Source of the DNA: Dyella acidiphila
GTDB taxonomy: Bacteria > Pseudomonadota > Gammaproteobacteria > Xanthomonadales > Rhodanobacteraceae
Direction of reading: 5' to 3'
DNA: 64,000 nucleotides
Assembly (NCBI RefSeq): GCF_014863405.1
Contig: NZ_JACZZA010000012.1
Coordinates: forward strand, 248,001-312,000
Part shown: positions 28,391 to 38,956 of the stretch, piece after piece
Layout of the letters: the number at the start of each line of letters is the position of its first letter
Position numbering within the stretch: position 1 is the stretch's first letter
Notes under the pieces: generated by a model
Seen by the model: only the letters and a program-made list of their open reading frames with translations
Told to the model about the DNA's origin: nothing
The model's database searches: none
Program-made: the position numbers and the translations under genes

Positions 28391-28647
28391 GCGCGGTAAG
28401 TTGCACCGTTCTCGTCCCGGAATTTTGCGTCTTACGTAATAAGTGGCGGCATGGGCGCATTCAACCTGCCGTAACCGCTTGATCGGGCGCGTCGCCGTGA
28501 AGGGAGTCTTCACCGCAAACAGGAGTCCGTTAGCCGTTCCTGCGGCCATTAGTCGAAGAATGCTCCTGTGTCGATTCCAGGCCGGCTAATTCGTCGCATG
28601 CATGAAGGCGCCTATGTCGGCCGCCTCTTCCCGTTGAGGAAATTGCC

Positions 28648-29004
28648 ATGTCCTACATCGATGGTTTCGTGATCGCCGTACCCAATGCCAACCGCGAGCG
28701 ATTCATTGGATACGCCGGCGCTTTTGACAATATTTTCCTGGAGTTTGGCGCCATTCGAGTGATGGAATGCTGGGGTGATAGCGTGCCCGATGGCAAGCTC
28801 ACCGACTTTCGCCGCGCTGTGCAGGCGAAGGAGGACGAAGCCGTGGTGTTCTCCTGGATTGAATGGCCCGACAAAGCCACCCGTGATGCGGGCATGGAGA
28901 AAGTCATGAAAGATCCACGCATGGACGCCGCCAGCGAGATGCCCTTCGATGGCAAGCGCATGATCTTTGGCGGTTTCGTGCCGGTGGTCAGCCTGCCGGA
29001 ATAG
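28648..29004 (+). CDS. DUF1428 domain-containing protein
   Basis: A 118-residue cytoplasmic protein of the dimeric alpha-beta barrel type. MSYIDGFVIAVPNANRERF, VMECWGDSVPDGKLTDFRRAV and MPFDGKRMIFGGFVPVV cover the whole DUF1428 pattern (YdgI/PA0269-like unknowns). Ribosome site TTGAGGAAATTGCC. It is preceded by about 260 non-coding bases and is the last core-like gene before the accessory island. Confidence 0.88.
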   Translation: MSYIDGFVIAVPNANRERFIGYAGAFDNIFLEFGAIRVMECWGDSVPDGKLTDFRRAVQAKEDEAVVFSWIEWPDKATRDAGMEKVMKDPRMDAASEMPFDGKRMIFGGFVPVVSLPE

Positions 29005-29012
29005 AAGCCCTG

Positions 29013-29034
29013 GTTTTGCCCATTGAGGCAAAAC
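29013..29034 (+). terminator. Possible terminator after the DUF1428 gene
   Basis: GTTTTGCC and GGCAAAAC form an 8-bp stem with a 6-nt loop, 8 nt after the stop codon, followed by GCTTTCT. The tail is a weak T-run, so efficiency is uncertain. Confidence 0.5.
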
Positions 29035-29040
29035 GCTTTC

Positions 29041-29126
29041 TAGCCAAACTTTGCTTCTCGAATCTCATAGTTTGGCCGCGCCGGCCAAACTATGGTTCCG
29101 TGTGCGCGATCTCACATAGTTTGGCC
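29041..29126. repeat. Palindrome array, left copy (CATAGTTTGGCC type)
   Basis: Four half-sites alternate in direction: TAGCCAAACTTTG (29041-29053), CATAGTTTGGCC (29066-29077), GGCCAAACTATG (29083-29094) and CATAGTTTGGCC (29115-29126). The middle two form a perfect 12-bp inverted repeat around GCGCC. An array with the same geometry but other arm bases lies at 38791-38844. Confidence 0.8.
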
Positions 29127-29254: not shown

Positions 29255-29944
29255 TTAGTCCCGTGTACTCAACAACACTCGCCCAAAATCCTGAAGTGCT
29301 GGCCTCGAAAGCTTATAAAGCGCGGCAGGCCGCCCTGCACCCGTATGTGCTCGTGCCCCCCGCGCCTTAACGATCATTCCTTGCTCAGCCACCTTACGCC
29401 GAAAGGTCGATTGATCCAGCTGCTGATCCAGCACGGCCTCGTATACCGCCATGAGCTGGGGAAGGGTGAAAGTGTCGGGTAGCAAAAACGCAGGCAACGA
29501 CGAATAGGCAGCTTTGCCGCGAACACGCTCAAGCGCTTGGGTCACGATGGCTCGGTGATCGAAAGGCAGATCTGGACAAGGGCGCACTGGCACCCATCGG
29601 GTGCGCTGCTCATCCAGCCCAGTGACCTTGTGCTCCGGGACCAGCGCTAGGTAGGCCACGGATAGCGACCAGCCACGCGGATCACGATCGGTGCTGCCGA
29701 AGGTACAAAGCTGCTCCAGATAGGCCACTTCCCCGCCGGTCTTGGTACGGAACACCCTGCGTACCGTGTCCTCCAGCGAACGGTCCTTATCCATGTGAAC
29801 GAATCCGCCGGGAAGCGTCCAAACGCCGGGCGCAACAGCCGCGTCAGCCGCCCGCTGGGCGAGCAGCAACCGCAGCACCCCGTCCTTCAGGGTGAGGACG
29901 ACCACATCGGTGGTGACGATCGGGTTGGGGAAATCGTCGATCAT
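29255..29944 (-). CDS. NrtR-type transcriptional regulator (degenerate Nudix domain plus winged helix)
   Basis: A 229-residue protein of the NrtR architecture. The N-terminal Nudix fold (GVWTLPGGFVHMDKD) lacks the catalytic glutamates of the Nudix box: the usual REL-x-EETG reads RRVFRTKTG. NrtR proteins likewise bind ADP-ribose or related NAD metabolites without hydrolysing them. The C-terminal half (LPDTFTLPQLMAVYEAVLDQQLDQSTFRRKV...GRPAALYKLS) is the NrtR winged helix. It is divergent from the J-domain/VWA genes, with a palindrome between them, so it probably represses that operon and itself. Confidence 0.88.
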   Translation of the reverse strand: MIDDFPNPIVTTDVVVLTLKDGVLRLLLAQRAADAAVAPGVWTLPGGFVHMDKDRSLEDTVRRVFRTKTGGEVAYLEQLCTFGSTDRDPRGWSLSVAYLALVPEHKVTGLDEQRTRWVPVRPCPDLPFDHRAIVTQALERVRGKAAYSSLPAFLLPDTFTLPQLMAVYEAVLDQQLDQSTFRRKVAEQGMIVKARGARAHTGAGRPAALYKLSRPALQDFGRVLLSTRD

Positions 29945-29988
29945 GGAACGACGCTCCAGTTTCTTTCATTTTGCAAAGAAGTGGGTAC

Positions 29989-30003
29989 TTTTGGTAACTA
30001 AAA
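29989..30003. promoter_or_regulatory. Candidate NrtR operator
   Basis: TTTTGGTAACTAAAA is a near-perfect palindrome (six of seven arm positions match) in the 132-base region between the NrtR-type gene and the divergent operon. NrtR boxes in other proteobacteria have comparable TTAGT/ACTAA cores. The region is far more AT-rich than the genes around it. Confidence 0.5.
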
Positions 30004-30076
30004 CAACAGCTTTAGGGAGCATATTCCTCTATTAATTATTTAATTGCAAATAACAAATATTTGATAGCATATCTCC

Positions 30077-31132
30077 ATGGACCTCCTTACTGCCTCTGCT
30101 GCTGATTTACTCGCCGCCTCCGACGCGGTTTGGGATGAGGGGCTTATTGCCGCGGCTTCCGATCGGCTGGTAACACTGCGTCGCCTTGCTGGCCGTTGGC
30201 ATCCCGATCATTGCGCTGACCCTGATGCGGGCGCCGTATTTTCCCGGATCCAATGGCAGCGCCGGCGGCTAGGTGGAGCCTCACGGGTTCTTGCTTCCGA
30301 TCGCTGTGCAACCGAGGCTCATCCGGTTTTTGAAAGCACGATGGCAGTCGATGGTCGACATTGGACCATGCGCTATCTGGCTACCTATGCCGATGAGCTG
30401 GGCGCGGTCTACATTGGCCAACGCACGTTGTTAGAAGTGTTCCCGCTGGGTCTTGCTGATTTGGCCGAACGCAGCGCCGCGCAATCCGCTCGCTGGATGT
30501 TCGTCTCCAGCGACATGGAGAGCCAGATCCGTCCGTGCCTGCCCGCGCCTGCCACGCTGCATCGAACCGCGGATTCGGTACTCGTTGTGCGTCCGCGCGA
30601 TCCAGACTTGGTGCGCCTTGCGGACGTGATGGCCCATGTCGGCACCGTGCCTCCCGAACACGTAGCCTGGATCGGCAGTGGGCTGTGGAATGTGGCCTGT
30701 TATCTGGAATACGCGCAGCGTGCGCATCCGGTCATCGACGGGTCAACGGTGTGGATCGACGTTGGTCGCCATCGCGTATCGCTGCTTGGTGGCTGGGCAT
30801 ACGCCGGCGCTATCGGAGAGCGCTGGGCGGCTCTTCCCGCGAACGCTTTGGCGGACGTCACACCTGTCTGGCGCGCTGATCCCGTTCAACGAAGCGCTCT
30901 GGGGCATATCAAGATTCGGCGCTTACTAAGAGAATTGCTTGGCGACATCACCGGCATGGGTCCTGTGCCGCCATCTGCCCCCGCGCCACTGGTGGCCTTC
31001 GCTCGCAGTCCTGCCGCGGGCACCGCCGTCGATCAATACCGGTCTTGGAAAAAGGCTGTAGAGGCCACTTTCGGTCCCTCTCGGTTTTCTGCCTGGGACC
31101 TCCCCACAAACGTCATTTATCCGGAGAACTGA
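30077..31132 (+). CDS. Protein with N-terminal J-domain-like segment and kinase-like C-terminal part, unknown function
   Basis: A 351-residue protein that I cannot assign to a named family. Residues 30-60 (LVTLRRLAGRWHPDHCADPDAGAVFSRI) look like helices II-III of a J domain with the HPD tripeptide at about 42-44, which in DnaJ proteins stimulates Hsp70. Around residues 200-242, VAWIGSGLWNVACYLEYAQRAHPVIDGSTVWIDVGRHRVSLLGGWAYA resembles the catalytic-loop region of a degenerate protein kinase (HPVID in place of HRD). It is 1 nt ahead of the VWA gene and divergent from the NrtR-type regulator. Little Shine-Dalgarno sequence precedes the ATG. Confidence 0.6.
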   Translation: MDLLTASAADLLAASDAVWDEGLIAAASDRLVTLRRLAGRWHPDHCADPDAGAVFSRIQWQRRRLGGASRVLASDRCATEAHPVFESTMAVDGRHWTMRYLATYADELGAVYIGQRTLLEVFPLGLADLAERSAAQSARWMFVSSDMESQIRPCLPAPATLHRTADSVLVVRPRDPDLVRLADVMAHVGTVPPEHVAWIGSGLWNVACYLEYAQRAHPVIDGSTVWIDVGRHRVSLLGGWAYAGAIGERWAALPANALADVTPVWRADPVQRSALGHIKIRRLLRELLGDITGMGPVPPSAPAPLVAFARSPAAGTAVDQYRSWKKAVEATFGPSRFSAWDLPTNVIYPEN

Positions 31133-31133
31133 C

Positions 31134-31652
31134 ATGGGCTCAGCACGTTGGAATCCTGCCGATTGGGACCGTTACGCCGCCACGACCAGCACCAAGTCGC
31201 GCGATGCCATTTTCGCTTCGCGCGGGATGAATTCTGCTTTCGATCCAAAGACGATAACGATGCGCGAGTCGGTTGATTCCGACGTCAATCCACAGTCGAC
31301 GCCGCTGATCGTTGCGCTCGATGTCACCGGATCGATGGGCACGATTCCGGAGGCGCTGATCAAAGGCAGCCTGGGTACGTTCATTGAAGAGGTTTACAGT
31401 CGCAAGCCCGTTACCGATCCGCACCTGATGTTCATGGGCGTGGGCGATGCGTTCTTTGATCGTGCGCCACTGCAGGTGACTCAGTTCGAAGCAGATCTGC
31501 GTATCGCAGAACAGCTGGCCGCCATGTTTCTGGAAGGCGGTGGTGGCGGCAACAACAGCGAGTCGTACCATCTGCCTTGGTACTTCGCCGGTCTTCGCAC
31601 GAAAATCGACTCCATGGCCAAGCGCCATAAGAAGGGTTATGGGTCTCGATGA
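31134..31652 (+). CDS. VWA-domain protein, C-terminally truncated
   Basis: A 172-residue fragment of a von Willebrand factor A-type protein. The metal-site motif appears as ALDVTGSMG near residue 60, with the rest of the Rossmann-like fold following (HLMFMGVGDAF). The frame stops abruptly after SYHLPWYFAGLRTKIDSMAKRHKKGY, where relatives known to me continue with the next core strand. The last four codons and the stop appear to come from foreign DNA that begins near 31641. It is probably a non-functional remnant, co-transcribed with the J-domain-like gene upstream. Confidence 0.7.
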   Translation: MGSARWNPADWDRYAATTSTKSRDAIFASRGMNSAFDPKTITMRESVDSDVNPQSTPLIVALDVTGSMGTIPEALIKGSLGTFIEEVYSRKPVTDPHLMFMGVGDAFFDRAPLQVTQFEADLRIAEQLAAMFLEGGGGGNNSESYHLPWYFAGLRTKIDSMAKRHKKGYGSR

Positions 31653-31903
31653 CTGATTGGGCGAGAGAACACGGCTACCCACGGCAAGCCGTGTATGCGG
31701 TGTTATCAGGCCGGTCGCGCTGCACTCGCGGCCGCGGGCATCAAATCGCCATTGCGCTCGGGATGAAAGCGGACGCATCACTTGGCTTTGGACTGAAAGG
31801 TAGGCAACAGGGTCGAAGGCCCGTCAACACGAATGGCCCTCTCTTAACTGAAGCAGGGCCATTGGTTGTTTCTTCTACGTTAGAGAAGGAGGTGTCCCCA
31901 TGA
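31649..31903 (+). CDS. Phage-type DNA-binding protein fragment (BcepMu gp16-like), 5'-truncated
   Basis: An 84-codon frame beginning MTDWAREHGYPRQAVYAVLSGRSRC and continuing RGRGHQIAIALGMK, the core of small Mu-phage-type DNA-binding proteins (BcepMu gp16 family). Family members normally have about 15-20 more residues before this point. The reading frame continues upstream as VSM before running into VWA gene sequence, so the first part has been lost. The tail after residue 45 is not recognisable. Whether it is expressed is unclear; ATG overlaps the VWA stop. Confidence 0.5.
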   Translation: MTDWAREHGYPRQAVYAVLSGRSRCTRGRGHQIAIALGMKADASLGFGLKGRQQGRRPVNTNGPLLTEAGPLVVSSTLEKEVSP

Positions 31904-31932
31904 CTACATAAGTGCGTCTGGGGCCACAAATG

Positions 31933-31960
31933 CAAAACCCCGGTGTCTAGACCGGGGCTT
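31933..31960 (+). terminator. Hairpin upstream of tnsAB, possible terminator
   Basis: CCCCGGT and ACCGGGG form a 7-bp stem around GTCTAG, preceded by AAAA and followed by CTTTG. It could end transcription of the truncated operon before the transposase gene. A second hairpin, GCACCGC-GTAA-GCGGTGC (32025-32042), lies further on in the tnsAB leader. Confidence 0.5.
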
Positions 31961-32123
31961 TGCTAAATCAGCGCTTGCGAGTCACGCCTGATTCCACTGT
32001 GCCCCCTTTCTCTCTCGAAATCAAGCACCGCGTAAGCGGTGCTGGGATAGGTGCGCGCCGAAACTCAGGCAGTTCTGCGGTCGGTGCGCCCCGCCACGTA
32101 TTTCGGCACATGGAGGATTCAGG

Positions 32124-34622
32124 ATGTCTTTCACTGCGCAAGACCGTGGGCAGTGCCCTCAAACAGGTCAATCGTCAGAACACGCCGAAGAGCACATATG
32201 CCAATTGCAACACGGCGCCATGCCAATACCAGCAAAGCCGTTCGGTGAGTTGGAACTGGACCAGTACTTATTGACGTGGCAGATCATCGGGCCGGCATCC
32301 GATTACATTCGGCGGAGCGCTGCAGGCTTATCGCGTGATGTGCGCCCCAGCAAGCACTCTTCGTGTGTGGTGGAGTTCCAGTCGCTCAAAAACGGCGTCA
32401 CTGTATCGACAGAGAGTCGAACTGGCGAATTGCCGTACGCGTTCGAGCTCGATTACGACAACTCTGTGTTGGCGTACTACGAACAACCGCCTGCCGTCGA
32501 GGTGAGTCGTCATACCAAACGCGGATACCGGCGACTCACACGATATACACCCGACTTCCTCGTGCTAACCAAGGACGGACCCAGGGTGGTACAGGTCAAA
32601 CTGCGCAGCGAACTCGAGCGCATCTTTGCCGACAAGCAAGACTGGGTAAGGCAAGAGGACGGATCATTCCAAGACGTGGTCGCCGCAGAAGCGTTCGAGA
32701 CTATGGGCCTTCCGCACGTCGTGGTGGCAATCGATGAAGTGGATCAACTACGCGCAGCCAATCTTGGTCTGATGCGTCGCGCCATGCGCGAAGTAGCCAT
32801 TGACGAGGCGGTGCTGGAGAGGAGCGTTTCAGCACATATGGAACAGAGAGGTTTATCACCGTTGGCGGATCTCGCGCATGCGATCGGTCAGCACGATCTG
32901 ACTCCGTTGATCAGATTGGTGGCACGCCACCTCCTCTACACCGACATTGGCCGATATTCACTGACCCATCCAGAGACATGCCTCGTCGCGCGCGAGCCGG
33001 CGCTGCTCAATGAAAACTATGTCGAGGCGTGGCAGCACCTCAAGCTTGAGTTCCAGGGGCGGTGCGACGGTACAGCACAGCAGTATGACTTCCCCCTGGA
33101 AAAGCATCTGGAGAAAGGTTTGGCTGCCGTAGAAAAACTAAAAGCGGGCGAGAACGGTCGGTCCGCGCGTAGATGGCGGCTGAAGATCCGTGAAGCCGAG
33201 GCTGAAGGGGTTAATGCAGTCGTCGCGCTATCGCGGGAATACATGAAGCGTGGCAACCGGAATCCAAAGCGTCCCGAACAAGTTCAGCTCGCGACTGAGT
33301 ACATCCGCTCTCAATGGGCTGGACAAGAAAAACCGTCCCCGCCTGCTCTGTATCGCGGCTTCAAACTGGCGGCTGAGGAAGCGCTGCCGATGGCGAAGCC
33401 GTTGTCGAAGGTTAGCTTTTATAACCTGCTGGATCGCGCCGGGCCATCTCTCGCGTACCAGCGCGGAGGCAATCGCGCTTGTCATGCGGCCGAGCCGCCC
33501 ACGGATGTCGCCATGCGCGCATTACGACCGGAGCGACCGTTCGAACTGGCCACTTGTGACCACTATCTGTGCGACCAGTACTGTGTCGTGCTTACCGCAA
33601 ACGGTATGGAATATGCGATGCGGCCCTGGCTTACGATACTTCGAGACATCTATAGCGACTTCCCGCTCGCGTTTTGGTTGCGCTTGGGCGCTCCGAGCAA
33701 GCGCAGCGTTGCGCTGATTCTGCGCCAGTGCGTGCGCCTGCACGGCCGCCTGCCAGAAGGCATCGTGGTGGACAGCGGCTCCGATTTCCGGTCGGTGTAC
33801 TTCTCAGCGCTTGCAGCTCATTGCGGCTTCAATTTGATATTCCGCCCCGTCGGACACCCACGATATGGGGCGGAGGCGGAAAGATTCTTCGGGCAGTACA
33901 AGACCTTGTGGTTGGCGGCGCGCCCAGGAAACTTGGTGAACCTCAAGGAGGTCCGGTGCGTCTCGGGGTCCCATCGCCCGGAGGCAGTCGCCACTATGTC
34001 TTTGTTCGATCTGTGGCAGGATTTTTCGACGTTTGCCGATTGGTCAAAAGGGTACGCGACGGATTCCGCACTTGGGTCGCCGGCCGAGCGCATGACAAGC
34101 GGTCTTGAGAGATTTGGCTGTTCGGGACTCCCCACGACGTTCGACGACAACTTTCTGATCGCAACGGCCGTTGACGCCGGTGAGTACACGCTCGATCCGC
34201 AACGCGGCTTGCACATAGGTGCATTTCACTACTGGAGTCCCACACTTGTCCGGGCTGATCGACCGAAGATTCCGGTCCGTCCCGATCCACAAGATCCGTA
34301 CCGCATCTACGCGCAGGTGGCCGGTACATGGGTAGCTTGTTTTGCTTCCCCCGAGCCCTCGTATGCACTGAAGTCGGGTTTGCAACAAGTAGTTGAGGGC
34401 GTGCTGCAACTCGATCGATATGAGCTGAACAAAGCTATTCGTGAAGATTCGGATAGGTTACTCGCCAGGGCAATCCAGCGGCGCAGCACCGGGCCTTCGA
34501 CACCTTTGGTGGAAGCGGCGGGTTTCGTACCACAGCGAATCTCACACAACGCGGAAGCCTCCAGCTTTTTTGCGGATGTGCTTGACGACTCGCTACCGGA
34601 ACTTGCGGAGGCGACATGGTGA
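32124..34622 (+). CDS. tnsAB: Fused TnsA-TnsB transposase (Tn7-like)
   Basis: An 832-residue protein joining two Tn7 transposition functions. Residues about 100-165 form a TnsA-type restriction-like endonuclease: FELDYDNSVLAYYEQPP (Glu near 107), YTPDFLVL (Asp near 142) and VVQVK (QxK near 156), which cuts the non-transferred strand. Later come helix-turn-helix segments and a DDE integrase core with Asp in ATCDHY near 478, Asp in VVDSGSDF near 548 and Glu in AEAERFFG near 584, which joins the transferred strand. All catalytic residues appear intact. GGAGG lies 7 nt before ATG 32124. The stop overlaps the tnsC start by 7 nt. Confidence 0.88.
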   Translation: MSFTAQDRGQCPQTGQSSEHAEEHICQLQHGAMPIPAKPFGELELDQYLLTWQIIGPASDYIRRSAAGLSRDVRPSKHSSCVVEFQSLKNGVTVSTESRTGELPYAFELDYDNSVLAYYEQPPAVEVSRHTKRGYRRLTRYTPDFLVLTKDGPRVVQVKLRSELERIFADKQDWVRQEDGSFQDVVAAEAFETMGLPHVVVAIDEVDQLRAANLGLMRRAMREVAIDEAVLERSVSAHMEQRGLSPLADLAHAIGQHDLTPLIRLVARHLLYTDIGRYSLTHPETCLVAREPALLNENYVEAWQHLKLEFQGRCDGTAQQYDFPLEKHLEKGLAAVEKLKAGENGRSARRWRLKIREAEAEGVNAVVALSREYMKRGNRNPKRPEQVQLATEYIRSQWAGQEKPSPPALYRGFKLAAEEALPMAKPLSKVSFYNLLDRAGPSLAYQRGGNRACHAAEPPTDVAMRALRPERPFELATCDHYLCDQYCVVLTANGMEYAMRPWLTILRDIYSDFPLAFWLRLGAPSKRSVALILRQCVRLHGRLPEGIVVDSGSDFRSVYFSALAAHCGFNLIFRPVGHPRYGAEAERFFGQYKTLWLAARPGNLVNLKEVRCVSGSHRPEAVATMSLFDLWQDFSTFADWSKGYATDSALGSPAERMTSGLERFGCSGLPTTFDDNFLIATAVDAGEYTLDPQRGLHIGAFHYWSPTLVRADRPKIPVRPDPQDPYRIYAQVAGTWVACFASPEPSYALKSGLQQVVEGVLQLDRYELNKAIREDSDRLLARAIQRRSTGPSTPLVEAAGFVPQRISHNAEASSFFADVLDDSLPELAEATW

Positions 34623-35713
34623 TCGCGGCTGATTGGATCCCAGCAGCGCTCGAGGCATTGAAGACGACGAAGGTTCTGCACCGAAATTACGAGTTCGCAC
34701 GCAAACAACTCACCGGAGCGCACCATGCAGTCATGAAGGGAGATCTCATTGTTCAGGTTGGGCCATCTCGCGTTGGGAAAACGCGCTGTGTGAAAGATGC
34801 CTTCAACGTTCACGAACCGAATTGGCCAAGCGACGATCAACGGATGCCTGTCGTGATAGTCGAAGCCAGCAATGACAGCAAGAACGGCGAATTTTCCACC
34901 AAAGCCTTCATGGCTGCGTGCTTACGTGCGATTCACCATCCTATCTACGGCATTTCTGATGAAGATGATCCTTGGGAGGAGCGACTGCAGGCAAAAATCC
35001 ACAGGACTCCGGAAGGTACACTTCGTTCCGCGTTCGAGACAGCCATAGCACTTCGTCGAACCGAACTCATCGTCTTCGATGAAGCTCACCACGTCAGGTA
35101 CGCGCCGGGTGGAGATGCTGCCGCCGCACGAATCTTGGATTCCTACAAATGCCTTGCGAACCGTACCAACATAAAGCTCGTTCTCACCGGGTCGTACCAA
35201 TTGCTCGATCTGCTGGTGCTTGCGCCACATTTGCTGGGTCGCCAGATTCCGCTCGAATTTCCTCGATACCATGCGGACGTACGCAATGATGTCGCAGCGT
35301 GGCAGCAGGTTCTACGGACCTATTCCAAGCATCTGGCTTTCGACAACGATGAGTCGCTGTCTGACTGGGGTGACTATTTGTTCGAGGGTTCCCAAGGATG
35401 TGTTGGTCAGCTTCTATCGTGGCTCAAAGCTGCTCTGACTGTCCTTTTGACCACCAACGGAGTGGTGATGACGCGTGACGTGCTGGAGCGGACGCGCAAA
35501 CCGGCGGCTCAAGAGGCGTCGATTCTTGCAGAAATCGTGAAGGGTGAATTGCAGTTGGTACGCGTCAAGCGCGCCTCCGCACAATGCGAAACACATACTG
35601 AGGATGGTGGCGCCAGGAAAGCGAGTAACGAAAAGGAAATCAAGCGCAAGGAGCAGGCGCGTAAGCCCTTCCAGCGCAAGTCCAGGCGCAATCCTTTGGG
35701 TGGCCGGACCTAG
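34616..35713 (+). CDS. tnsC: TnsC-like AAA+ transposition ATPase
   Basis: A 365-residue ATP-binding protein that in Tn7-like systems links target selection to the transposase. Walker A QVGPSRVGKTR is near residue 48, Walker B ELIVFDEAHHV near 150 and a sensor-1-like VLTGSYQL near 187. The C-terminal 60 residues are Lys/Arg-rich. ATG 34616 overlaps the end of tnsAB, implying coupled translation; tniQ follows after 3 nt. TniB/TnsC and IstB-like ATPases are related, but the neighbours decide for TnsC. Confidence 0.88.
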   Translation: MVIAADWIPAALEALKTTKVLHRNYEFARKQLTGAHHAVMKGDLIVQVGPSRVGKTRCVKDAFNVHEPNWPSDDQRMPVVIVEASNDSKNGEFSTKAFMAACLRAIHHPIYGISDEDDPWEERLQAKIHRTPEGTLRSAFETAIALRRTELIVFDEAHHVRYAPGGDAAAARILDSYKCLANRTNIKLVLTGSYQLLDLLVLAPHLLGRQIPLEFPRYHADVRNDVAAWQQVLRTYSKHLAFDNDESLSDWGDYLFEGSQGCVGQLLSWLKAALTVLLTTNGVVMTRDVLERTRKPAAQEASILAEIVKGELQLVRVKRASAQCETHTEDGGARKASNEKEIKRKEQARKPFQRKSRRNPLGGRT

Positions 35714-35716
35714 CGA

Positions 35717-37000
35717 GTGCGAAGCCTGCTTCCACTAGCGATGGAGGGCTGCCATACCCAAGACATTGAGGCATTGCCTTCGTACATGCTTCGGCTAGCG
35801 GCTGTGCATGGCGTAACTCTCGGGGACCTCATACGACACGTTGCCCGCGGCACGCTGGAAGAGAATGCGTTGGTGGCGGCGTCTCGCGGCCAGCCGATCT
35901 CCACGCTAGTGCGACCCAATGCCACGTCCGTACTTTTCGCTTCGGTCATCGCTGAAACACGCGCCGAAAACATCTATAACCTAGAAAGAGGGACGTTTGC
36001 GTTGCTTAGCCCAGCATTAGCTCGGTCACCAAGCACTTTTACGCATCGATTACGCTGGTGTCCTGCTTGTTTCCGCGAGCAACGGCTAGAGGCGGGAAAT
36101 GCATATTTCAAGCTTGCCTGGTTCCTCGCAGCCATAGGAGCATGTGATCGGCATAGAATTATCCTGCGCGATTGCTGCCCGCACTGTGGGCAATGCCCAA
36201 AACCTTGGAGCGAATGGACTCGCTTCGATCGTTGTCAGAACTGCAATGAGCGCATGGATGTAGTAACCACTTCGGACGCGGTTACACATGACCCGGAGCT
36301 TCTGGCGTCCGATCTGATCGCATTGGTTGGTGAAATAGCCGTTGCGACCGGTCCGTTCCAAGTAGGCGCCGCATGTCGGTACTTGAACCGGGTGTTCGAC
36401 GAAGCCTGGCAACATGAGAAAGAGGGTGAACTGTGGAACAGGGTGCCCCGGGATGACTGCATCAGATATTGCAATCCGGAGGAACCGATGACTTTGGGCG
36501 TCGTGCGCAGGCTTGCCTACCAACTCGAAATCCCGATAGCAGATTTTTTGCGAGGCGTTGACGGAGCCAACCAATCATTCGGGTTTGCGGCAACCTGCCC
36601 ATTGCCTCGGTCTATGCGAGCAGCGCATCGTCAAGGCGTGATCGATGCGCCGATTCTGGTAAAGCAGATGGAACTGTTCTTAGACGATGGGGTTACACCG
36701 GTATCCTTGCGCGAAGTTGCACGGCAGCTGGGTGTTTCAGTCGGTGCGCTGCGTTACCACGCTCCCATGCTTGCATCGAAGCTCGTCGCACGAAGCGAAC
36801 AGTATCGACGCACGATCCACACTCAAAAGGATACTGCGGTTGTTCGAGCTGTGTTGGACGGAGTTCGCTCGTGGTCAGTAGGAAGCGTATCCCCCATAGC
36901 AAAGAAGCCTCTCTTGCGGATGCTTAGAAACCAGACCGGTCTTCCGAAGGAGAAGCTTCGCAAGGCAATTCAGCGGTTGCTTCGTGACCAAGTAGCGTAA
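35717..37000 (+). CDS. tniQ: TniQ/TnsD-family target-selection protein
   Basis: A 427-residue protein with a TniQ N-terminal domain (LPSYMLRLAAVHGVTLGDLI) and a zinc-binding region with RWCPACF near residue 113, CDRH near 143, CCPHCG near 152 and CQNC near 174. The C-terminal half contains helix-turn-helix-like segments (SLREVARQLGVSVGALRYH). In Tn7-like elements such a protein reads a target sequence, or recruits a guide complex, and recruits TnsC. It starts at GTG 35717, 3 nt after tnsC. At this length it is intermediate between short TniQ and full TnsD, so direct DNA targeting is possible. Confidence 0.83.
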   Translation: MRSLLPLAMEGCHTQDIEALPSYMLRLAAVHGVTLGDLIRHVARGTLEENALVAASRGQPISTLVRPNATSVLFASVIAETRAENIYNLERGTFALLSPALARSPSTFTHRLRWCPACFREQRLEAGNAYFKLAWFLAAIGACDRHRIILRDCCPHCGQCPKPWSEWTRFDRCQNCNERMDVVTTSDAVTHDPELLASDLIALVGEIAVATGPFQVGAACRYLNRVFDEAWQHEKEGELWNRVPRDDCIRYCNPEEPMTLGVVRRLAYQLEIPIADFLRGVDGANQSFGFAATCPLPRSMRAAHRQGVIDAPILVKQMELFLDDGVTPVSLREVARQLGVSVGALRYHAPMLASKLVARSEQYRRTIHTQKDTAVVRAVLDGVRSWSVGSVSPIAKKPLLRMLRNQTGLPKEKLRKAIQRLLRDQVA

Positions 37001-37213
37001 TCATGGTGCCATGAGCAAACAGTGGGCTACTGCTTGCCGCGGACAATCCTTGCGACCGCTGTCACGACCGAGGATGCTTCGAAGAGCCGAGTACGAAGGC
37101 GATCCATCAGCTCCCGCTGCTGACGAGCGTTGCGAGTTTCCTTGGCGGTGACCACACTCGACATCGGGAATGGGCGATGCGATGGCGATGGTGGCCGCGT
37201 AGCCGCCGACCAC
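37001..37213. other. Non-coding stretch after tniQ
   Basis: No gene is seen. Several loosely related GGCGA/GACCAC motifs occur here (for example TTGGCGGTGACCAC near 37143), similar to the ordered repeats that begin at 37214. They may be degenerate transposase-binding sites. Confidence 0.35.
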
Positions 37214-37289
37214 GGTCAGGTTCGCTGGCGAAGCTGGTCAGTTGCTGTGGCGACCGTGGTCAGATGGTTGGCGTTTGCACCTTAGGACA
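37214..37289. repeat. 22-bp periodic repeats, candidate TnsB-binding sites and transposon end
   Basis: GGTCAG begins at 37214, 37236 and 37258, exactly 22 bp apart, and each copy is followed about 12 nt later by TGGCG (37226, 37248, 37269). Read on the minus strand the units are CTGACC-x-TCGCCA-like. The sequence ends at 37285-37289 with GGACA, which on the minus strand is a 5'-TGTCC terminus. Tandem 22-bp sites and TGT ends are the hallmark of Tn7-family ends. Confidence 0.6.
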
Positions 37290-38750
37290 CGGTAGTACTC
37301 CTCATGGTCCACCAAACGGTTGGCGACCGGTACACGGAGGCTCCATGTATTCGAACCTTTCCCAGTGGCGACGCATACGCAAACGAGTACTGGTGATCGG
37401 AGAATCCAAGCGTTCAGTGGCAAAAAAAGAGGGAATGAGCAGGGCGACGCTAAGGAAAATTCTTGCACATGAGTCGCCTCCCGGGTACGGTGGTAGACGA
37501 GACCGAAAGCCAAAGCCTAAGCACATGCCTGCCCCACTAGCGCGCAGACGGTTGCGTACGGACGCGGTGAAGTGGCGATGGATGGAATGGGTATACGATC
37601 TCGAACGAAAAGCGTTTGAAGAGGGAACTTTGTCTGCTTCTTTGTCCCATGCCAGCGGCAGTTCTCGTAAGAGAATTCTTGTCGTCATGGCGTCAGAGCA
37701 GGGATTTTCTGCCCACGCTATTGAGAAGCATCTTGGCTTGTCTCGTACGACCGTCAGGAATTACCTTCTGAAATTCAAGGCAGGCGGACTCGAATCGCTA
37801 CTGGCAATAAAACCAAAGCCACGAATGGCCGACAACCAGTCTTTTGGGAAGGCGTTGTTTCAACTGCTCCACGAACCACCTTCGCTATCAGGTTTCAATC
37901 GAACGACATGGCGGATAGAGGACCTTAGAAAGACCTTGACTGGTCGTGGGCTCCCTGTTTGCGATGAGGTTATCCGTGAGGCGCTATGGAAGTCAGGGTT
38001 CCGCTGGAGATCAGCCAAGGTCGTCCTGACTAGCAACGACCCAGCCTATCGCGAGAAGCTAGCTTACGTCCGTAAGGTCTTGTTCAATCTAGGAGACGAC
38101 GAGCGGTTCTTCTCCATCGACGAATACGGTCCGTTTGCGATCAAGGCGAAACCGGGACGCGTTCTGGTCGGTCCCGGCGAGAGTCCAAGTGTGCCGCAAT
38201 GGCAGAAGTCAAAGGGCTGGCTTATAACGACGGCGGCGTTGGAACTCTCCCGTAACCAGGTGACACATTTCTACTCCCGAGCGAAGAACACGCTAGAGAT
38301 GATCAAGATGGCGGAGACGCTGCTTGATAAGTACAGGGGAGCAAGAACGCTCTACCTTTCTTGGGACGCCGCTTCGTGGCACATGTCGAAGAAATTGCTG
38401 GCATTCGTTGAAGCTCACAACGCCGAAGGCGACGGCTCTCCCAGGATTGAGCTCGTCCCGTTGCCCGCCTCTGCCCAATTCTTGAATGTCATCGAATCGG
38501 TGTTCAGCGGCATGGCCCGGGCGATCATTCATAACAGTAATTACCCGTCCGTGAAGGCGGCGACCGAGGCCATCGACCGCTACTTCGAGGAGAGGAACCA
38601 ACACTTCGCCGAGAACCCCGAACGAGCCGGGAACAAGATTTGGGGCAAGGAGCGGACAGCGGCTACCTTCGACCTATCTAACAACTGCAAGGACCCTAAT
38701 TACCGTTAGAACGGAGTCGAGGCGGTTTGCGGACAGCGCATGGGAGCTCG
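37290..38750. mobile_element. IS630-family insertion sequence
   Basis: One transposase gene with short flanks. An imperfect inverted match, with gaps, exists between about 37297-37335 and 38707-38750 (shared blocks CTCC, CATG, GTCC, AAAC, CGAC and ACGG), which may be diverged terminal repeats. The exact ends and the expected TA duplication could not be fixed. Confidence 0.5.
37345..38709 (+). CDS. IS630-family transposase
   Basis: A 454-residue transposase with a perfect GGAGG 4 nt before ATG 37345. Two helix-turn-helix segments precede the catalytic domain: SVAKKEGMSRATLRKILAH near residue 25 and AIEKHLGLSRTTVRNYL near 130. The DDE triad is visible as FFSIDEYG (Asp near 256), YLSWDAASWH (Asp near 339) and LNVIESVF (Glu near 382), typical of the IS630/Tc1 group. 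The extra N-terminal helix-turn-helix makes it longer than the usual 340-residue IS630 transposase. The frame is open upstream to 37177, but that part has no ribosome site. Confidence 0.88.
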   Translation: MYSNLSQWRRIRKRVLVIGESKRSVAKKEGMSRATLRKILAHESPPGYGGRRDRKPKPKHMPAPLARRRLRTDAVKWRWMEWVYDLERKAFEEGTLSASLSHASGSSRKRILVVMASEQGFSAHAIEKHLGLSRTTVRNYLLKFKAGGLESLLAIKPKPRMADNQSFGKALFQLLHEPPSLSGFNRTTWRIEDLRKTLTGRGLPVCDEVIREALWKSGFRWRSAKVVLTSNDPAYREKLAYVRKVLFNLGDDERFFSIDEYGPFAIKAKPGRVLVGPGESPSVPQWQKSKGWLITTAALELSRNQVTHFYSRAKNTLEMIKMAETLLDKYRGARTLYLSWDAASWHMSKKLLAFVEAHNAEGDGSPRIELVPLPASAQFLNVIESVFSGMARAIIHNSNYPSVKAATEAIDRYFEERNQHFAENPERAGNKIWGKERTAATFDLSNNCKDPNYR

Positions 38751-38790
38751 GCTTCAATCAGCTCGGAAAATTTGCTGTGCAACGGAAGAT

Positions 38791-38844
38791 GGTCACTTTA
38801 TGCTTTCAAGGAGATCATAAAGTGGCCAAAGCGGCCACTTTATG
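38791..38844. repeat. Palindrome array, right copy (CATAAAGTGGCC type)
   Basis: Half-sites GGTCACTTTATG (38791-38802), CATAAAGTGGCC (38816-38827) and GGCCACTTTATG (38833-38844). The last two form a perfect 12-bp inverted repeat around a 5-nt spacer. Orientation, spacing and the outer CATA/TGGCC frame equal those of the array at 29041-29126, but three arm bases differ with matching changes in both arms. Confidence 0.8.
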
Positions 38845-38883
38845 GTTTGCCGCACAACAGAAATGAGCGGGTTCCCGCATTGG

Positions 38884-38956
<73 letters not shown>

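Follow-up and report, generated by a model that had tools for sequence, protein, structure and literature searches.

The stretch of DNA analysed here, called the window throughout, is 64,000 nt of Dyella acidiphila (Rhodanobacteraceae; assembly GCF_014863405.1, contig NZ_JACZZA010000012.1, positions 248,001-312,000 of the forward strand), and it carries an operon of tnsAB, tnsC and tniQ genes followed by an IS630-family transposase gene, a Tn7-like right end and a tRNA-Ile(CAU) gene (Table 1, where all positions are those of the window). It is likely that the window holds the transposition core of a Tn7-like transposon that is free of clustered regularly interspaced short palindromic repeats (CRISPR), has its TnsA and TnsB fused and homes to a tRNA gene, inserting behind tRNA-Ile(CAU), and that its left end has since been lost.

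The three open reading frames (ORFs) of the operon are contiguous, intact and free of internal stops. Within TnsAB, residues 112-174 match Pfam Tn7_TnsA-like_N (E 4.6e-8), and Pfam further gives Mu-transpos_C, under its cut-off, and a weak rve. By sequence alignment the TnsA part (residues 83-292) and the TnsB part (residues 345-771) each match the PDB chain 9bw1_M, with E 7.7e-15 and 6.2e-38, the next-best PDB chains being much weaker (E 3.4e-6 or worse for the whole protein), and an AlphaFold2 model (12 rows, mean predicted local distance difference test score, pLDDT, of 75.8) finds the same chain by Foldseek over 757 columns (E 3e-45, 25% identity). Residues E97, D144 and K159 of the TnsA part and D479, D550 and E586 of the TnsB part, which on the 9bw1_M alignments we take to be the catalytic ones, are invariant in all 16 of the 16 fused TnsABs compared. 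TnsC aligns with the TnsC of PDB 8fcu_Q, present too in 8v32 and 9bw1 (E 3.7e-28); a similar E value is given by 9g0f, named only as an AAA+ ATPase, and the remaining five matches have E of at least 0.37. TniQ matches Pfam TniQ (E 1.3e-17), its residues C115, C118, C143, H146, C154, C157, C173 and C176 are invariant in 10 of 10 rows, residues 11-383 align by sequence to the TnsD chain 8v32_J, and an AlphaFold2 model of it (10 rows, mean pLDDT 80.6) matches that chain by Foldseek over 449 columns (E 3.1e-16). The PDB titles describe 9bw1 as a TnsABCD-DNA transpososome and 8v32 as a TnsD-TnsC-DNA complex, and we take the chains 9bw1_M and 8v32_J to come from PmcCAST, a tRNA-homing CRISPR-associated transposon (CAST) of type I-B2. 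An earlier sequence-only reading of the locus had proposed an 832-residue TnsA-TnsB fusion with both catalytic sets, followed without gaps by a TnsC ATPase and a 427-residue TniQ/TnsD, and on all of these points it is borne out; since the alignment and the model both place a TnsA fold in the N-terminal part, its own reservation that the first 200 residues might lack one falls away.

The right end has its CATAAAGTGGCC-type sites at 38791 (1 mismatch), 38816 and 38833, and its outer edge stands exactly 24 bp from the 3' end of the tRNA. When 37000-38880 was used as a query against 230 genomes, matches ended at 38856/38857 in eight of them (G851, G022, G845, G825, G392, G372, G811 and G382; genomes are given here as G numbers and loci as L numbers) and at 38854-38868 in four further relatives (G300, G768, G035 and G846). 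ARAGORN names the tRNA as Met from its CAT anticodon, but the three best E. coli matches listed, at 81.6% identity, are all annotated as tRNA-Ile, so that the gene is tRNA-Ile(CAU), the sequence-only reading having rightly called it tRNA-Ile, and tRNA-Met is rejected as the target. That reading had given 31641-37289 as the limits of a complete and compact module with no cargo, and here it has to be revised: at 31641 a truncated VWA-like gene meets a junction, the element's right end is at 38856, an IS630-type transposase gene sits between tniQ and that end, and no left end was found. Both 31641 and 37289 were rejected as transposon ends, these positions being occupied by other features.

Related genes stand at the same tRNA in many relatives. 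The survey took in a sample of 38 genomes carrying related TnsAB or TniQ genes, with tRNA-Ile sought by a pattern of its 3' half in which 2 mismatches were allowed (a reversed control pattern gave 0 matches), and in 15 of the 38 the contig with tRNA-Ile also carries a related TnsAB or TniQ gene no more than 25 kb away. These are the source genome (G000), G374, G283, G039, G325, G020, G319, G313, G277, G004, G011, G026, G790, G824 and G514; G374 is counted through its tniQ, its tnsAB being on another contig, the TnsAB match of G026 contains a stop, and in G277 the tRNA is reduced to its 3' half. All 15 have their tns genes 3' of the tRNA, and the order tnsAB-tnsC-tniQ, then right end, then tRNA 3' end recurs in G374 (over two contigs), G283, G039, G325, G319, G313 and G004. 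Where an end is seen beside a tRNA, the distance from the discriminator base to the first site behind it is 35-41 nt in 16 of 17 loci, by a rule whose alternatives were fitted to those same 17 and which missed L059, a locus where the eye does make out a site. A check that leaned less on fitting counted near-palindromes of at least 10 of 12 at offset 30-52: 17 of 30 distinct tRNA-Ile 3' flanks have one, against 80 of 5000 random places. This count is not to be read as a frequency, since many of these loci were chosen as carriers of elements, and two of the 17 (L010 and L013) resemble terminators. Ends also stand behind other tRNAs, namely tRNA-Gln(CTG) in G049, tRNA-Arg(CCG) in G274 and G224, and another CAU tRNA in G111, and no tRNA was found in the fetched stretches (18 to 40 kb each) of G359, G237, G212, G284, G314 and G030. 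A tRNA scan of 13 named loci gave one tRNA-Ile (in Frateuria, the same element as in G020), one undefined call and none in the other 11.

Insertions stacked at the tRNA are seen in two of these relatives. In G851 a younger insert, flanked by TCCTT on both sides, separates the tRNA from an older right end. That older end is of the window's type and has kept IS630 sequence next to it; the 3' part of the window's IS630 gene together with its right end has 81% DNA identity to that genome, and the IS630 protein 89.5% identity over 172 aa. In G014, TTTTT stands before the tRNA-side end and also follows two more left ends, the second of which leads straight into an older right end; TTTTT, being a simple run, makes this duplication the weaker evidence. 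Thus 5-bp duplications are found in 2 of the 17 loci examined, the one in G851 read by hand and the 16 others tried by script. G851 has both ends as well as the duplication, and the window has the right end only; the window shows the stacking in a decayed form, with an old right end at 29042-29094 and a left-end remnant at 29101-29126.

What the TniQ protein would read at this site is suggested by tRNA genes that are not whole. A group I intron (Rfam RF00028) lies after the anticodon of tRNA-Ile in four of the five sources scanned (G015, G004, G283 and G514), the window, as the fifth, giving the tRNA only, and in G004 and G283 a tns element stands behind such an intron-split gene. In G277 the 3' half of the tRNA precedes an end by itself, at a longer spacing of 46. 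The split genes and the half tRNA of G277 together suggest that the 3' half is the recognition target of TniQ. The geometry, the proximity in 15 of 38 genomes, the duplications and the likeness to TnsD over most of its length give good comparative support to the proposal of the sequence-only reading that the long TniQ may itself pick the tRNA-Ile site. A wider reading we put at even chances: tRNA-Ile(CAU) in this family would be the docking post for a whole clade of CRISPR-free Tn7-like elements, their TnsD would need no more of the tRNA gene than its 3' half, so that a group I intron at the anticodon is no obstacle, and relatives would have switched to tRNA-Gln or tRNA-Arg at about the same insertion distance. 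If true, the docking post would offer a natural series from which a tRNA-reading code in TnsD could be worked out, with no RNA guides needed.

Some relatives have further arrangements. In G514 (L099:9650-9918 and L148:8273-8349) tniQ is immediately followed, in the same orientation, by an intron-bearing tRNA-Ile(CAU), and a second, intron-free tRNA-Ile about 12 kb off has a transposon end some 23 nt past its CCA; possibly the G514 element includes its own copy of the attachment gene. G032 has two tRNA-Ile copies about 20.7 kb apart (L150:10582-10657 and L062:13291-13366), each followed by an end-like sequence as read by eye. G039 and G049, close relatives of the window, have a gene of uncharacterised kind after tniQ (L056:6647-7225 and L057:14558-15688) that the window does not have, and Pfam gave no match for the one in G039.

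In the TnsAB tree (30 rows including outgroups, midpoint root) the window pairs with G374 (98/98) within a proteobacterial clade of 17 rows (99/99). Twelve of those rows are at tRNA-Ile, one is at tRNA-Gln and one at a different CAU tRNA; a further row, which meets a contig end, is left unassigned, and for the last two the fetched stretch showed no tRNA. A second proteobacterial clade of six rows (100/99) has no tRNA-Ile, two tRNA-Arg and four rows with no tRNA in the fetched stretch, and the branch joining these 23 proteobacterial rows has a modest support of 83/85. The 9bw1 row groups apart from these, together with four cyanobacterial plasmid rows (100/100). The TnsB of Tn7 and a TniA-like protein of the source genome fall outside all the fused rows, at a place that is unsure since their long branches meet. 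A quick TniQ tree, also of 30 rows, agrees, with the window in a group of seven supported at 99 by the Shimodaira-Hasegawa-like approximate likelihood ratio test (SH-aLRT), the others being four tRNA-Ile elements, one tRNA-Gln and one CAU-tRNA element; a minimum of two changes among the Ile, Gln and Arg labels is needed on this tree, unlabelled rows not counted. A fused TnsAB-TnsC-TniQ relative occurs also in a Gram-positive, Bacillus sp. OV166 (L144), and the source genome (contig C12, L002) encodes another transposase, TnsB/TniA-like, unfused and 609 aa long.

The window's element stands beside the cyanobacterial group of fused-TnsAB elements behind the I-B2 and I-D CASTs, and its TnsAB fusion, TnsC family, long TnsD, short fixed distance to the tRNA and place in the tree are those of a fused-TnsAB, tRNA-homing subfamily. 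According to the review PMC11406308, the I-B2 and I-D CASTs stem from a subfamily with fused TnsA-TnsB whose TnsD uses different tRNA genes, and the subfamily's non-CRISPR targeting systems are described as various and unstudied; insertion some 30-33 nt behind a tRNA-Leu gene, driven by the TnsD of CyCAST, is reported from experiment in PMC10293859, and PMC8649781 notes insertion downstream of tRNAs. On these reports the overall plan of fused TnsAB and tRNA-homing TnsD is already known, and the window's element joins that plan; the label of an unclassified Tn7-like branch given by the sequence-only reading therefore does not hold, the branch adjoining the cyanobacterial fused-TnsAB group in which tRNA-homing TnsD has been described (PMC11406308, PMC10293859). 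A proteobacterial tRNA-Ile clade of fused-TnsAB elements is not named in the titles and abstract openings among the literature matches listed, a coverage outside of which most subscription papers fell, and absence from print is not claimed.

Compared with PmcCAST (Tn7744, I-B2), the element is alike in its fused TnsAB, in the same TnsC family and in a long TnsD similar over most of its length, as well as in a tRNA attachment site, which is given for the PmcCAST group in PMC11406308. It differs in that no CRISPR-Cas was found in the window and no second, short TniQ was seen, in a proteobacterial host, in a TnsAB that is 25% identical, and in a tRNA-Ile(CAU) site where PmcCAST has tRNA-Val (PMC10293859). 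With CyCAST (Tn7745, I-D) the fused TnsAB and a TnsD-driven insertion behind a tRNA gene are common (PMC10293859), whereas CyCAST has a tRNA-Leu target, a Cascade of type I-D and a cyanobacterial host. The cyanobacterial non-CRISPR fused-TnsAB elements of Hsieh and Peters 2022, known here through the review PMC11406308 and compared by description only, share the fused TnsAB, TnsC and TniQ. The group matters as the origin of two CAST types, and its non-CRISPR targeting systems are called unstudied in that review. The proteobacterial clade, with one dominant tRNA site, sister sites and stacking, makes a comparison set for the part of TnsD that chooses the tRNA, could possibly yield protein-guided insertion tools without CRISPR, and helps explain the variable island at tRNA-Ile in Rhodanobacteraceae.

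A transposon of this kind would work as follows. TnsAB would bind the TnsB sites in the transposon ends, its TnsB part cutting and joining the 3' ends and its TnsA part cutting the 5' ends, for a cut-and-paste movement. The long TniQ, a TnsD, would use its zinc-finger core and helical C-terminus to bind the 3' half of the tRNA-Ile(CAU) gene and would load TnsC, and TnsC would pass the site on to TnsAB. Insertion would then produce a 5-bp duplication some 24 bp past the tRNA, the tniQ-side end usually toward the tRNA, and because the tRNA is left intact later elements could use the site again, displacing the earlier ones outward.

Several observations weigh against this explanation. The window yielded neither a left end to match the right end at 38856 nor another copy of the duplication, and exact copies of CATAAAGTGGCC number two genome-wide, both inside the right end beside the tRNA, so that the window copy is probably immobile by itself, though its tns genes look intact. 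The scripted duplication search gave credible ends in G014 alone, none at 14 of its 16 loci and one that is not credible in G004, many stretches being short. In G020 and G514 the tns genes are oppositely oriented; 22 of the 38 genomes have the cassette farther away from tRNA-Ile or on another contig, contig breaks being possible as in G797; and in one of the 38, G111, the tRNA-Ile pattern had 0 matches. Further, the nearest TnsAB relatives at tRNA-Ile (G374, G283 and G039) have CATAGTTTG-type ends and not CATAAAGTGGCC, which means that the right end of the window could be that of another element, and in G022, G845 and G372 ends of the window's type stand in fetched stretches that lack TnsAB, TnsC and TniQ alike. 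These two findings, together with the composite state of the island, speak for a right end at 38856 and tns genes that are two different elements stacked at one tRNA, the tns genes having lost their own ends and their target being a guess. We hold this to be unlikely, if deserving of real weight: the gene order and orientation match those of the seven relatives named above, the end in G049 is of CATAAAGTGGCAC type, so that end type varies within the clade, and the TniQ groups with tRNA-homing elements as described. The right end presumably belongs to these tns genes.

The remaining alternatives concern the kind of element. That tns genes could be passengers on an ordinary island that uses the tRNA through an integrase is highly improbable, even if tRNA genes are in general common island sites and both G032 and G876 (Dyella ginsengisoli, C94, with its copies about 7.3 kb apart) have two tRNA-Ile copies kilobases apart; the tRNA-side ends are arrays of TnsB-type repeats at like spacing and not integrase att cores, G851 and G014 have their 5-bp duplications, and ends of the same make stand behind tRNA-Gln and tRNA-Arg in sister elements. 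It is still harder to credit a CAST of I-B2 or I-D type whose cas genes are gone or whose Cascade acts in trans, which would fit with the nearest solved TnsAB, TnsC and TnsD relatives, all taken to come from one CAST system. What was found has none of the Cascade, array and short TniQ of such CASTs: a single TniQ of the long kind adjoins tnsC, the cyanobacterial rows are a separate clade, the window has no 12-mer repeated threefold at a spacing of 40-100 bp, the Rfam scan of the window gave no RNA but the tRNA, and neither Cas1 (PF01867) nor DevR (PF01905, presumably a Cas7-type family) has a match in the whole genome, which is 99.97% complete, other cas families not having been sought. The absence of CRISPR and cas asserted in the sequence-only reading holds to this extent, not every ORF of the window having been scanned for cas families.

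Tn7 itself has a TnsA, B, C and D plan, makes a 5-bp duplication and inserts at a fixed distance behind a conserved gene, glmS being its target. A placing of the element in Tn7 proper, in Tn5053/Tn402 or in Tn6022 is next to negligible in our estimate; what it has for it is that the Pfam matches to TniB and TniQ are common to Tn5053-like elements. Tn7 (plasmid R721) has separate TnsA and TnsB, a TnsE and a TnsB very distant from that of the window, where TnsAB is fused and the end stands at tRNA-Ile. Tn5053/Tn402 elements have a TniA without TnsA and a resolvase, TniR, and here the TnsA domain is present and fused; Tn6022 has a comM target and a TnsF selector, and here an IS630 transposase follows tniQ and the end is at a tRNA, comM itself not having been sought. 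No match to TnsE, a resolvase or a tyrosine recombinase was obtained among the seven proteins scanned, and the Tn7 TnsB and the TniA-like protein lie outside the fused rows, with the uncertainty of their long branches already noted.

Table 1. Features of the element and of the adjoining island, in window coordinates
Feature	Position	Strand	Basis or remark
DUF1428 gene	28648-29004	+	Pfam DUF1428 E 4.9e-45; older island or host flank
Old Tn7-like right-end remnant	29042-29094	-	Three CATAGTTTGGCC-type sites: 29042 (2 mismatches), 29066, 29083
Left-end remnant of another element, AGTTTGGCC type	29101-29126	+	One site left, 29115-29126
NrtR-type NUDIX regulator, cargo/island gene	29255-29944	-	Pfam NrtR_WHD E 4e-19, NUDIX 8e-9
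Gene with possible DnaJ-like N-terminus, cargo/island gene	30077-31132	+	Pfam DnaJ E 0.22 only (weak)
VWA-like gene, cut short	31134-31640	+	169 of 307 aa; full homologue in G015, L050:9659-10582
Recombination scar, VWA-like/gp16-like junction	31641-31645	.	Comparison with G015, G004
BcepMu gp16-type helix-turn-helix gene, 5' end missing	31646-31903	+	NCBIfam TIGR04111 E 1.2e-17
tnsAB, fused TnsA endonuclease and TnsB DDE transposase	32124-34622	+	832 aa
tnsC, AAA+ regulator	34616-35713	+	365 aa; Pfam AAA_22 E 9.4e-12, TniB 1.6e-7
tniQ/tnsD, predicted target selector	35717-37000	+	427 aa; zinc-binding TniQ core and helical C-terminal extension
IS630-family transposase gene	37345-38709 (ORF opens 37177)	+	NCBIfam transpos_IS630 E 3.9e-43; passenger beside right end
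Tn7-like right end	38791-38856	-	Terminus TGTGCGG and three CATAAAGTGGCC-type TnsB-like sites (putative)
ACAGA, candidate 5-bp target duplication	38857-38861	.	No partner found
tRNA-Ile(CAU), proposed attachment site	38881-38956	-	ARAGORN, Rfam, E. coli matches

As judged from its sequence, the island of the window is composite, with the IS630 gene and remnants of older elements alongside the tns genes. The DUF1428 gene and the old right end adjoining it are common to G014 (85% DNA identity, 28471-29098 against L064), and the old right end aligns with the same end there. The left-end remnant behind it has its outer edge at 29101-29103, the terminus being TGTGCGCGATC or TGCGCGATC, and TGCGCGATC likewise forms the terminus of left ends in G014 and G851; as a partner for the right end at 38856 this remnant is rejected, the repeat types being different and no 5-bp duplication common to the two. 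From 29259 to 31640 the window has 80% DNA identity to G015, where the NrtR, possible DnaJ-like and VWA-like genes of 29255-31640 also stand together, about 94 kb from the rpoD region. The VWA label, which we take in part from a weak ViaA match (E 0.19), is a presumption, and Pfam gave no match for that gene, for its homologue or for three small genes of relatives.

The gp16-type gene, of a BcepMu family that takes its name from a Mu-like phage, is longer in G004 (119 aa, L048:9271-9630), where it lies upstream of tnsAB. At the scar the tns element's left end was probably lost: a deletion would have joined the truncated gp16-type regulator to the truncated VWA-like cargo gene of the older element, and on the simplest reading this one deletion removed the left end of the younger element together with the right end of the older one. 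The gp16-type genes of the window and of G004 have 83% DNA identity over 130 bases, while their TnsABs are merely 28% alike.

Scans of wider collections added little. A scan of genome contigs with the single TnsAB as query and a scan of viral contigs each gave 0 relatives, phage records gave four short matches, and PADLOC found no clear defence gene among nine proteins. Between tniQ and the IS630 gene, 37111-37276 is repeat-like DNA that matches places in many genomes of the family, and as an end of the window's element it is ruled out, the matching places being scattered in many relatives.

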